A stretch of DNA of 64,000 nt. Origin: Pseudomonas sp. G2-4. GTDB taxonomy: Bacteria; Pseudomonadota; Gammaproteobacteria; Pseudomonadales; Pseudomonadaceae. Location of the stretch: contig NZ_CP125957.1 in assembly GCF_030064125.1 (NCBI RefSeq), forward strand, positions 2,232,001 to 2,296,000. Reading direction: 5' to 3'. This document shows, one piece after another, positions 22,473 to 55,640 of the stretch (the first letter of the stretch is position 1; each line of letters opens with the position of its first letter). Both the position numbers and the translations under genes were made by a program. Under the pieces are notes generated by a model. It was not told the origin of the DNA, did no database searches, and saw nothing but the letters and a program-made list of their open reading frames with translations.

Positions 22473-22991
22473 TTAACTAACGACCGGCGAGCGCCAGTCA
22501 TCGGAACCCGAGGTGCCGCTCACTTCGTGGGTCCAGGTGATCTTGCGGTACGTGAAGTGAACATCTTCCAGGTGGGTAAAGTGTGCGTTTGCCGGGTCCT
22601 GGCAGTTGAACATGTAGTCCTTGATTTCGACGATGATCGCGTCCCACAGCGTCGTGGTGAAATAATGCTCCTGGGTACCCGCAGCGGATGTCCGGAACCA
22701 TTGAATCGCCACTTCTTCCATGCGCTCACCGCTGGTAAGAGCCCCCAGCAGCAGCGGCGTAGATTTGTCGAACACTTTGGTGATGATGAGAGGGTGATGC
22801 ACGCGTTGGCCGGTTGGCTGGCCGGATTGAGCATCGCGCGGAATGGTCACTTGGTGTTGGAAGCCTTGCACCATGATCCTGTCTTCACGACCTTCCTGAA
22901 AGATATTGCCAACCGAGTCGGCTGTAAACGCGCCGGCAGTGATCAAACCTTGTTTGATCCCGGTAATGGTCATATACGCTGGGGTAGCCAA
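22473..22991 (-). CDS. hcp: Hcp (TssD) type VI secretion tube protein, orphan
   Basis: The 172-residue protein is a full-length Hcp: ATPAYMTITGIKQG at the start, EDRIMVQGFQHQV and GQRVHHPLIITKVFDKSTP in the core. Hexameric rings of this protein form the T6SS tube and carry small effectors. No other T6SS gene is in the window, so it must work with an apparatus encoded elsewhere. The start codon appears to be TTG (CATCCATTGGCT), with AAGGAGAG at proper spacing; the usual ATG of the family seems to have changed to TTG. Confidence 0.93.
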   Translation of the reverse strand: MATPAYMTITGIKQGLITAGAFTADSVGNIFQEGREDRIMVQGFQHQVTIPRDAQSGQPTGQRVHHPLIITKVFDKSTPLLLGALTSGERMEEVAIQWFRTSAAGTQEHYFTTTLWDAIIVEIKDYMFNCQDPANAHFTHLEDVHFTYRKITWTHEVSGTSGSDDWRSPVVS

Positions 22992-27136: not shown

Positions 27137-27192
27137 TGTGAGGGATCCATGGACGCCGGATTCAAGAGCAGAGGTGCGAGCATAGGAGCGGT

Positions 27193-27225
27193 GCCCCCGA
27201 CTTGCGCCGGGGGGCGTTGCTTCTT
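27193..27225 (+). terminator. Rho-independent-like terminator after the diguanylate cyclase
   Basis: GCCCCCG and CGGGGGGC form a GC-rich stem at 27193-27214, followed by TTGCTTCTTT. It lies 56 bases after the cyclase stop codon. Confidence 0.6.
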
Positions 27226-27263
27226 TGTTAGAGCCGCTATGGCAAAGTTCGAGGTCATGTGGA

Positions 27264-27692
27264 TTAAGGCATGTCTGAGGTTAAATCTAACTTGACCCGT
27301 TTCCACTCGCCGTTTGTTTCATAGTAGGCGGTATTTCTGTATTCGTAGATCATGTCTAATGTTCTGAGTTTTACTCTTCCGGGCAAAATTTCTCGAACGG
27401 CGCCAGAGCTTTTGGTTACAAGGAATGGATGGGCTGACTTTATTTTATTAAGCGCCTCGGTGTGGTTGTCATCTCTTTTCATGAGGAAATACCGGTAGAC
27501 GATTGGGACAGTAGCTCCTCCTGAATTATAAAGCACCTCGTAAATTGCACCTGTTGAGTTGACTGGTATTACGGAAATTATCTCCGTTGGTTCTGGTGAG
27601 GCGGGGGCGGTCATGTAAATGTATATAGCCTGCGCGACGCAGAGTGTTGATATCGTAAAAGAAAACCACCTAGAAGCCCTTGGTTTTTGCAT
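27264..27692 (-). CDS. Candidate immunity protein, N-terminally membrane-anchored
   Basis: The 142-residue protein has one N-terminal hydrophobic segment (about residues 9-28, FSFTISTLCVAQAIYIYMTA) and a soluble domain of about 110 residues. I do not recognise the family. It overlaps the 3' end of the toxin gene by 23 bases and lies directly downstream, the normal place of an immunity gene. Its AT-rich sequence matches the toxin gene and not the flanks. An N-terminal anchor with a periplasmic domain, as in colicin M immunity proteins, would suggest that the toxin acts in the periplasm. The immunity role is inferred from position. Confidence 0.65.
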   Translation of the reverse strand: MQKPRASRWFSFTISTLCVAQAIYIYMTAPASPEPTEIISVIPVNSTGAIYEVLYNSGGATVPIVYRYFLMKRDDNHTEALNKIKSAHPFLVTKSSGAVREILPGRVKLRTLDMIYEYRNTAYYETNGEWKRVKLDLTSDMP

Positions 27693-29181
27693 ACGCTATA
27701 CCTGCTTTTATCCATATCTGATCAATCTTATCATCGCCGTAAGGCGACTCTGCCCACCATTTTCCAAATTCTTCCTTTGATGTTCCCGCTATGGATTGAG
27801 CCGCTCCTGCCGCTCTTAGTAAAATCTGCTCTGAAATGCCTGCCGCTGTGCCAGTGGCACCATAATTGAAATTGCCAAACTCCTCAAACTCTCTGCCATG
27901 CTGTTTATAGTCCCATTCGCCTTTGTTTCGAACTTTGGTGTAAAAAATTCCAAAAGTAACAGCGTCACCTCCCACAATGATTTTTGAGGCATCTTTCAAT
28001 TTTCTCGCCTCCTCCATATTTGCGATAAGCATGATGTTGGGTGGGGAGAGGGGAGGTACTCCGGAGTTGGCGCGTTGTTCGATTAGTTTTTCTTGCTCGG
28101 GAACTAATCTTATAAGTCGAGTTTCAAGGTTGTTAATCTCGGCGTTCAATATGTCGCTCTGATAGGTGGCATAGAGCGCGGAAAGTTCCTTTTTCAGAGA
28201 CGCCTCAGGGTCGAGGTGATTAAGTCGTGTGTGCTCAACGAATGCTTTGCTATCTTGGTTTATTAAGTCTTTACCTGGGTGGCCAGCTAAGAGCGAGAGA
28301 TGCCGTTGCAGTTCTTTTTGTTTCATCTCCACTAGCTTTTCAATGATGGATATGGTTTTGGTGAGCCTCTGCTCCTGTGATATATCAACCGTCGAGCCAG
28401 CCTTTTTCTCGGCAGTATTCAGTTCGGTCTGAAGTCTTTTTTCTAAACTGCCTTTATCCAATTGATATTGACTGGTGATAGCTTTTTTTTCTTGATTGTA
28501 TCGATTGGACCAAGTGTCTAAGTATTTTTTTTCTTCGGCTTCTGTAGTTGTGATGGTTGAGGCTAGCTGTTTGGATTTTTCAGCAAGGATTTTTGTTTTT
28601 GCAGCTAGCATTTTGGCTGTATAGGCGGCGGTGATGGAGGTTAACCATTTGTTATAGGTCGTGAGAGAAGGCTCTCTGCTTTTATGAAAAATGTTCACAA
28701 AGTCAACTGCATTTTTTTTGATATCTTTGTTAAAAGGATTTCTTCTGTAAAAAAGGTTGGCTGTTGCAGTGCTCTGTTGGAGTTCGGATTTCTTTAGTTC
28801 AAGAAGTTGATCGGCGATAGATTTTTCAAGCTTGTACTGCTCCAGTGCAGTTGGCTTGCCAGGGCCTGATTTGTGTGCGATTTCTTCGTCAAGCTCACGC
28901 CTGAAAAACGGGGTGTGTGCGTTATAGGCTTTGTCTAAAATATCTTGTTGGGTGGCGATAGCAACGATTATTGCTATTGTCTGATCCGGATGTTTGATGT
29001 TTTTTTTGCTGAAGAGTGTTTTGATTTCGCGTGTTTCAATAATTTTTCCGTTCCAAGGCAGGGGTTTTGCAGTATATACAGGTGGCAGCGGAGCGGATGG
29101 CAGTCGTGGCAAAGGCTGGTCCGGTTTTATAATAATGGGCGGAAGATTGATTTTATCAGGTGGGCCGTTCGGGTTTTTCAT
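27670..29181 (-). CDS. Polymorphic toxin type 44 domain protein, bacteriocin-like
   Basis: The 503-residue protein begins with a proline-rich, probably disordered stretch of about 45 residues (DKINLPPIIIKPDQPLP). A helical and coiled-coil middle follows (about 60-370, rich in Lys, Glu, Gln and Thr). The C-terminal domain, residues 382-503, matches the Ntox44 pattern: FYTKVRNKGEWDYKQHG, FEEFGNFNYGATGTAAG, SPYGDDKIDQIWIKAGI. There is no signal peptide, and no PAAR, VgrG, Rhs or TpsA feature. The layout resembles colicin/S-pyocin proteins with an unstructured translocation arm. AGGAGG precedes the ATG. The gene is markedly AT-rich and is probably horizontally acquired. Mode of release and target are unknown. 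Confidence 0.82.
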   Translation of the reverse strand: MKNPNGPPDKINLPPIIIKPDQPLPRLPSAPLPPVYTAKPLPWNGKIIETREIKTLFSKKNIKHPDQTIAIIVAIATQQDILDKAYNAHTPFFRRELDEEIAHKSGPGKPTALEQYKLEKSIADQLLELKKSELQQSTATANLFYRRNPFNKDIKKNAVDFVNIFHKSREPSLTTYNKWLTSITAAYTAKMLAAKTKILAEKSKQLASTITTTEAEEKKYLDTWSNRYNQEKKAITSQYQLDKGSLEKRLQTELNTAEKKAGSTVDISQEQRLTKTISIIEKLVEMKQKELQRHLSLLAGHPGKDLINQDSKAFVEHTRLNHLDPEASLKKELSALYATYQSDILNAEINNLETRLIRLVPEQEKLIEQRANSGVPPLSPPNIMLIANMEEARKLKDASKIIVGGDAVTFGIFYTKVRNKGEWDYKQHGREFEEFGNFNYGATGTAAGISEQILLRAAGAAQSIAGTSKEEFGKWWAESPYGDDKIDQIWIKAGIAYAKTKGF

Positions 29182-29620
29182 GGTGCCTCCTGGCAGTGTG
29201 TCGATTATGTACAGCGTTGGATGGTTTTATTCGCATCAAGCGTCGGTTGTGTCGATTGTGTTTTTTATAATTCGATTTTATGAGTGTGCGAGTTGTTATC
29301 AATGTTTCGGGCAGGTATGACAGGCTGTTTGCTGGACGCTATCACGGACAAGCACTTGTATTCTGCGAAACAAGATCAGGCTAGGGGCGCCACTTCCGAG
29401 CAGCAACCTGAAAAAGTTGTCGGAAAATTATTAACGATCTATCGGCTTGTGCATTTTTCCATGCTTCGGCTGCGCTATTTCCTACATGGTGATAAGAAAT
29501 ATGCTTTCAGGAGTGTCGCTACTAGAGTGGCGTATGGCACCTTGCGTAGTGGCTGGAGCCTTGGCTCATTGTCGGGTAGGGTTGCCAAAGCACTCTCCCG
29601 CTACGGACAAGGATGAACTC
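29182..29620. other. Non-coding AT-rich region between toxin and carboxypeptidase genes
   Basis: This 439-base gap between two divergent genes holds the toxin promoter on the minus side and the carboxypeptidase promoter on the plus side. GTGTCGATT occurs twice (about 29199 and 29249). The AT-rich composition of the toxin island fades out towards 29600. Short open frames here have no ribosome site and no recognisable product. Confidence 0.45.
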
Positions 29621-55624: not shown

Positions 55625-55640
55625 CTGTACGTGTATACAG
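55625..55640. promoter_or_regulatory. LexA box (SOS operator)
   Basis: CTGTACGTGTATACAG fits CTGT-N8-ACAG exactly. It lies 19 to 34 bases upstream of the DUF1654 start codon, where LexA would block the promoter of the DUF1654-endA unit. Confidence 0.9.

Follow-up and report, generated by a model that had tools for sequence, protein, structure and literature searches.

We think it likely that two overlapping genes in the window, the whole 64-kb stretch of Pseudomonas sp. G2-4 DNA analysed here, encode an S-type-pyocin-like bacteriocin and its immunity protein, and that the Ntox44 domain of the toxin is not a cytoplasmic RNase and would attack peptidoglycan or a peptidoglycan precursor in the periplasm. 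The toxin is probably an intact bacteriocin of this kind, with a toxin type that was not found described on pyocins and with a cell-wall target. The original prediction of an undescribed system holds in part: delivery is of a known kind, through an S-type pyocin module, and the new part lies in the toxin's place of work, in the toxin type that the module carries and in the immunity family. The features of the locus are these:

27137-29446, no strand: AT-rich inserted segment, flanked by a GGDEF gene and an M20 peptidase ORF, GC 0.448
27670-29181, minus strand: toxin gene, ORF of 503 aa
29047-29181, minus strand: toxin residues 1-45, proline-rich N-terminus, putatively the part that threads the outer-membrane receptor and meets TonB
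28522-29046, minus strand: toxin residues 46-220, putative receptor-binding module common to S-type pyocins
28054-28521, minus strand: toxin residues 221-376, linker poor in proline and glycine, probably helical by composition
27670-28053, minus strand: Ntox44 domain, toxin residues 377-503 and the stop codon (PF15607, alignments and model)
27264-27692, minus strand: immunity gene, ORF of 142 aa for a predicted membrane-anchored protein whose beta-rich domain is probably periplasmic
27609-27683, minus strand: immunity residues 4-28, predicted membrane anchor (AlphaFold helix and hydropathy, with a KD19 of only 1.33)
27670-27692, minus strand: overlap of the toxin and immunity genes, 23 bases, with the immunity start codon inside

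The pair had been described as far more AT-rich than its flanks, and its GC content is indeed 0.437, whereas the rest of the window, taken as 576 overlapping tiles of the size of the pair, averages 0.616 (sd 0.026, minimum 0.543). The GC3 values of its two genes are 0.43 and 0.47 and those of the two flanking genes 0.74 and 0.76. For the insertion site, 16 other GGDEF loci (L190-L205) were compared with a flank of 1.5 kb. In four relatives (L190-L193), which hold the closest GGDEF genes but one (62-76% identity) and are the only ones of the 16 with the peptidase alongside, the GGDEF and M20 peptidase genes adjoin, with fewer than 180 bases between the aligned parts; the other 12 loci (48-61% identity) have no peptidase within 1.5 kb and are uninformative on an empty site. 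The same site is occupied by a related gene in P. brassicacearum subsp. neoaurantiaca (L035/L076), and L074 has the pair in this neighbourhood too, though no GGDEF gene was detected around it. Since the site is empty in the four relatives and filled in P. brassicacearum, an insertion is the simplest account of the segment 27137-29446, and composition and site together mark the locus, at the level of sequence comparison, as horizontally acquired, which agrees with the transfer that had been suggested. One Pyocin_S (PF06958) gene lies elsewhere in the source genome (G000:C1:1104572-1104964).

The layout had been likened to that of colicins and S-type pyocins without a recognised N-terminus; residues 1-220 can now be placed as an S-type pyocin module, which supports the likeness. 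In three Pseudomonas plasmid records, annotated S-type pyocins match residues 9-217 (42% identity, E 1e-19), and there is a weak sequence match to the pyocin S2 receptor domain 5odw (E 0.016 with the single sequence, 0.049 with a profile). Fourteen prolines fall within residues 1-45, in keeping with the proline-rich start that had been noted, and L13, P14, P40, W43 and G45 are invariant in an alignment of 11 proteins. As no 19-residue stretch of the toxin exceeds a KD of 0.92, it has no hydrophobic signal peptide, which had also been foreseen. Residues 217-370 hold only three prolines and four glycines, and the homologue at L035 (356 aa) is 54% identical over residues 1-219 and then passes to Ntox44, residues 221-376 being missing; this stretch therefore looks like a spacer.

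A search for the toxin protein in 298 Pseudomonas genomes, 74 of which gave any match, separated its two ends: besides a full-length relative (L034), it returned proteins in which the module precedes a different C-terminus and proteins in which Ntox44 follows a different N-terminus. Ten module-sharing proteins, several of them near-copies, were scanned with Pfam. Six combine Pyocin_S (PF06958) with the colicin/pyocin DNase domain (Col-Pyo_DNase), with L044/L047 and L038/L001 as near-identical pairs, and three (L046, L053 and L070, the first two alike) have a colicin pore-forming domain without PF06958. The tenth, L052 (3768-5882), carries PF06958 and ends in about 150 aa that match nothing in Pfam at E<=0.01, possibly a further pyocin toxin type. 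Residues 1-220 are, as judged by sequence, a module found on DNase, pore-forming and Ntox44 proteins, and the toxin-domain swapping that had been anticipated is seen among the proteins scanned from these genomes. By analogy, we infer that the module binds an outer-membrane receptor. L077 and L080 have different N-termini ahead of Ntox44; their short starting stretches resemble TonB boxes, so that the Ntox44 cassette may sit on several receptor modules.

That the 503-residue protein ends in Ntox44 was confirmed by the PF15607 search, which gave 59.7 bits (E 4.1e-16; cut-off 24) over residues 413-497, and the domain conserved in alignments spans about 377-503. Only Ntox44 exceeds a Pfam cut-off in the toxin. 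At E<=1 Pfam returned no PAAR, Rhs, VgrG, Hcp or CDI/CdiA part, as the original prediction had it, and no colicin, ColM, PF06958 or nuclease domain; NCBIfam gave no match of weight for the toxin or the 142-aa protein. The motifs DxK, GNxxxG and DxxxD are present. An alignment of 11 rows from Bacillota to Pseudomonas has 16 invariant columns, of which seven hold D, K, N or Q, and its conserved D-x-K, N, Y, Q and D-D-x-x-D are all found in the toxin, which keeps D424, K426, N437, Y440, Q462, D483, D484 and D487. The conserved Asp, Lys, Asn and Gln are likely to form an active site, as far as conservation can indicate. The AlphaFold model of the domain is all helical (mean pLDDT 93.1), and a Foldseek search with this model and that of the immunity protein found no known structure at E<=0.001. 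Weak matches to the Ntox44 profile (E about 1e-9) lie in Pseudomonas frames of 350-490 aa (G162:C1:1001810, G157:C18:8896, G226:C127:22415 and others) and perhaps represent a distant Ntox44 clade.

The neighbouring gene overlaps the toxin gene by 23 bases, as had been described, and its start codon sits over the codons for tyrosine and alanine at the toxin C-terminus. The AlphaFold model of its product (mean pLDDT 89.6) has a helix at residues 4-28, followed mostly by strands, and this helix bears out the single N-terminal membrane segment that had been proposed, with a modest hydropathy that falls just below the KD19 threshold of 1.4. Among the 298 Pseudomonas genomes, an immunity match adjoins 29 of the 30 Ntox44 genes counted intact, although one of the 29 (G178/L072) proved frameshifted on inspection; 23 of the 30 are standalone, with an open frame below 200 aa. 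At the exception, L068, a 150-aa ORF overlaps the toxin gene by the same 23 bases, and its product starts with a hydrophobic N-terminus. The intact-gene count retained 42 of 86 Ntox44 matches and left out 41 weak ones (E 8.5e-10 or worse, mostly frames of 350-490 aa), none of which adjoins an immunity match by coordinates, and three second rows for the same gene. The pairing of Ntox44 with this immunity family is beyond chance. Homologues of the immunity gene without the toxin, whose wide occurrence was to count against the original prediction, do exist in part: 37 of 48 strong immunity matches have Ntox44 alongside (partial or with stops in ten cases) and 11 have no detectable Ntox44, and among 15 weak matches it stands alongside in two. 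Because nearly every intact toxin has its partner, the toxin-less homologues are read as orphan immunity genes and not as a refutation.

The overlap itself recurs widely. Genome and viral contigs supplied 111 Ntox44 loci, of which four were dropped for stops inside the domain. At 96 of the 107 intact ones, an ATG gives precisely the 23-base overlap with the toxin gene and begins a frame of 90 codons or more. All 96 overlapping ORFs have a hydrophobic N-terminus (KD19 at least 1.4), compared with 47 of 318 other ORFs at Pseudomonas loci, controls that were picked by length and some of which may not be genes. The loci are not independent, and the 96 immunity proteins come down to 72 once those at least 90% alike position by position are removed. 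Eleven intact loci have no ATG at this place (L077, L100, L153, L175, L176, L177, L179, L180, L181, L183 and L184), and at L077, L100 and L184 no next gene was found. Judged by gene order and sequence, the Ntox44 cassette travels as a unit with the immunity gene that overlaps it. Broken or partial Ntox44 genes lie beside immunity frames at L071, L072, L073, L188 and G040:C35:35725-36093. One chromosomal site, beside a large chemotaxis gene that looks CheA/ChpA-like by eye, repeatedly holds standalone pairs of Ntox44 and immunity gene (L045, L048, L054, L058, L059, L061-L065 and L073), with no hcp in the stretch examined.

Ntox44 is carried by many other proteins, as seen in genome, contig, plasmid and phage collections, on which this breadth rests. 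A hcp gene stands directly upstream of Ntox44 in 21 loci, namely 17 of 23 from Enterobacterales, one labelled Chryseobacterium and three viral contigs (L098, L102, L111, L112, L117, L118, L122, L126, L127, L136-L139, L142, L143, L146-L148 and L157-L159). The hcp frame is broken in L102, and in 12 of the 20 others its stop overlaps the ATG or GTG start of the next gene (ATGA/GTGA); with hcp so placed, the standalone Ntox44 is very likely T6SS cargo in those loci. In seven further loci, six of them viral contigs much alike, hcp is divergent. Rhs-Ntox44 fusions occur at L179 and L209, and PAAR and LXG carriers are on record in the available sections of PMC9134191 and PMC7790226. A protein on a viral contig (L180) joins two PG_binding_1 domains to Ntox44, the next gene being a lipoprotein-like one of the DUF5412 family; a second scan of the viral contigs with L180 as query returned only itself. 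A Metabacillus plasmid protein has a Sec-like N-terminus, as judged by eye, ahead of Ntox44 and is likewise followed by a DUF5412 gene, and Paenibacillus phage phiERICV carries Ntox44 with an annotated signal peptide; within the annotated stretch this gene has no same-strand neighbour that resembles an immunity gene.

Neighbouring proteins at the distant loci L175, L179 and L180 have lipobox-like N-termini, and those at L176 and L179 score below the DUF5412 cut-off. The 142-aa protein itself has no Pfam match to DUF5412 (PF17428), and its family resembles DUF5412 weakly around a GAT motif (hhalign probability 52-55%, pairwise BLASTP E 0.002). The immunity family showed no conserved stretch on which to base a profile scan of the viral contigs.

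The place of work follows from several of these observations taken together. PF06958, the inner-membrane-translocation domain, is present in all six DNase relatives and in L052, in none of the three pore-formers and in none of 13 Ntox44 fusion proteins. These 13 comprise the window toxin, L154, L156 and ten more; the module is clear in four (the window toxin, L074, L035 and L034), weak in L156, L041 and L153, while six have other N-termini, and L154 and L155 are near-copies. The absence of PF06958, the hydrophobic or lipobox-like neighbours, the PG-binding and signal-bearing relatives and the conserved polar residues all suggest that Ntox44 works outside the inner membrane, and they lend indirect support to the periplasmic target that had been read from the anchored immunity protein. 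The PG-binding fusion and the signal peptides show an extracytoplasmic workplace, not peptidoglycan cleavage; peptidoglycan is proposed as substrate mainly from the L180 fusion and the secreted-looking relatives. The toxin would be released from the producer cell, bind an outer-membrane receptor of related pseudomonads, probably a TonB-dependent one, and be drawn into the periplasm, where it would stop for want of an inner-membrane-translocation domain. There Ntox44 would attack peptidoglycan or its precursor, and the anchored 142-aa protein would protect the producer.

An older label competes with this reading. The 2012 survey (PMC3482391), in the parts available, describes Ntox44 as all-alpha, with the motifs DxK, GNxxxG and DxxxD, lists it in its table under predicted RNase toxins and leaves the immunity column empty; likewise, in their accessible text, PMC12165300 and PMC6079546 term it an RNase and PMC7790226 a nuclease domain 'characterized' in other systems, a label behind which no test was found in that text. 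Ntox44 might accordingly be a metal-independent RNase that enters the cytoplasm in some way not yet recognised, with the anchored 142-aa protein blocking entry, and delivery by T6SS and T7SS leaves the compartment unfixed. We regard this as unlikely, given that PF06958 occurs in none of the 13 fusion proteins, that the neighbours have hydrophobic or lipobox-like N-termini and that PG-binding and secreted-looking forms of Ntox44 exist, and the evidence argues against the "predicted RNase" label. The missing PF06958, which the toxin shares with the pore-forming L046, L053 and L070, and the all-helical model would also fit an action on the inner membrane from the periplasm, on lipid or as a pore. 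This seems quite unlikely, however, as there is no hydrophobic hairpin (highest KD19 0.92), the invariant columns resemble an active site, with conserved polar residues that fit an enzyme better than a pore, and the immunity protein is modelled as one anchor with a soluble domain, not as several membrane spans.

Two further explanations concern the use of the pair and not its target. The window also contains an Hcp (T6SS tube) gene (22473-22991) 4.3 kb from the pair, one of three Hcp-family genes in the source genome, and with Ntox44 so often directly behind hcp in Enterobacterales the toxin could be a T6SS effector delivered through it; this is highly improbable, because the toxin begins with a pyocin module and has no PAAR, VgrG or Hcp part, and because the hcp gene is not adjacent and belongs to a chromosomal stretch common to L074 and L035/L076. 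The pair might instead be unused island cargo, intact but silent and kept for immunity only. For control of the SOS or pyocin type, the scan covered CTG-N10-CAG and, on one strand, a single PrtN-box-like pattern, and no CTG-N10-CAG (LexA-type box) was found in the 220 bases upstream of the toxin gene, nor nearby with three mismatches. Across 17 upstream regions, some of them near-copies, the box is present in eight (L038, L044, L046, L047, L053, L001, L070 and L036, the last with another N-terminus) and absent from the window gene, L034, L035, L037, L039, L041, L052, L069 and L074, so that seven of the 14 proteins with the module have it. The missing box, the ten strong immunity matches beside broken or partial Ntox44 and the AT-rich foreign composition speak for silent cargo. 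We nevertheless hold it very doubtful, since the toxin has kept every residue that is invariant from Bacillota to Pseudomonas, AGGAGG precedes its start and the same site in another species has an open homologue (L035). The only LexA-box-like site in the window, with three mismatches, lies far from the toxin gene at 55625-55640.

A bacteriocin acting on the cell wall, the reading we prefer, has points against it as well: the missing LexA box, the weak match to the pyocin S2 receptor domain, the lack of a fold match for either model, the weak kinship of the immunity family with DUF5412, the phiERICV gene without an immunity-like neighbour and the orphan immunity genes. It can be set against known systems. 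With the S-type pyocins (pyocin S2, PyoG) and the colicin-like pore-forming Pseudomonas pyocins the pair shares the proline-rich start and N-terminal module, the C-terminal toxin and the downstream immunity gene; it differs in the Ntox44 toxin, the lack of PF06958, the single-anchor immunity protein with its overlapping gene and the LexA box that was not found, and from the nuclease S-type pyocins in having neither PF06958 nor a nuclease domain at E<=1. The colicin M family, in the sections available of PMC5821083, would offer a likeness in its periplasmic cell-wall target and recombined toxin domain, and several of its branches have a single-anchor periplasmic immunity protein like the 142-aa protein; here, however, there is no ColM domain, Ntox44 is another family, and the immunity protein was compared with Cmi by Pfam only. 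The Hcp-linked pairs of Enterobacterales have the same domain and the same 23-base overlapping anchored immunity gene, but their toxins are standalone, mostly of about 137 aa, behind hcp and without a receptor module. The Ntox44 polymorphic toxins of the 2012 survey (PF15607; PMC3482391) share domain and motifs and, in the parts of it available, are predicted RNases exported by T2SS, T6SS or T7SS with no immunity listed, whereas the present case has a pyocin module, an immunity family and extracytoplasmic evidence. In the accessible journal literature from 2011 onward, no Ntox44 bacteriocin was found described and no test of the domain was found, and in that from 2016 no paper on DUF5412/PF17428.

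The known killing types of S-type pyocins are DNase, RNase and pore formation, with ColM in the M-type relatives (in part from PMC4905994 and PMC5358913). To a broader reading we would give an even chance: that Ntox44 is a widespread and unrecognised cell-wall toxin, not an RNase, for which no solved fold relative was found; that with an undescribed extracytoplasmic immunity family marked by a G-A-T motif it forms a cassette carried by pyocins, T6SS hcp operons, Rhs proteins and secreted or PG-binding Gram-positive proteins; and that the window encodes an S-type pyocin belonging to a new killing class. A Ntox44 pyocin would add one killing type to the S-type pyocins. If Ntox44 works on the wall, the RNase and nuclease annotations of PF15607 in T6SS and T7SS papers would be wrong, and a toxin family spanning Bacillota to Pseudomonas would gain a testable function and an immunity family unlisted in the 2012 survey.
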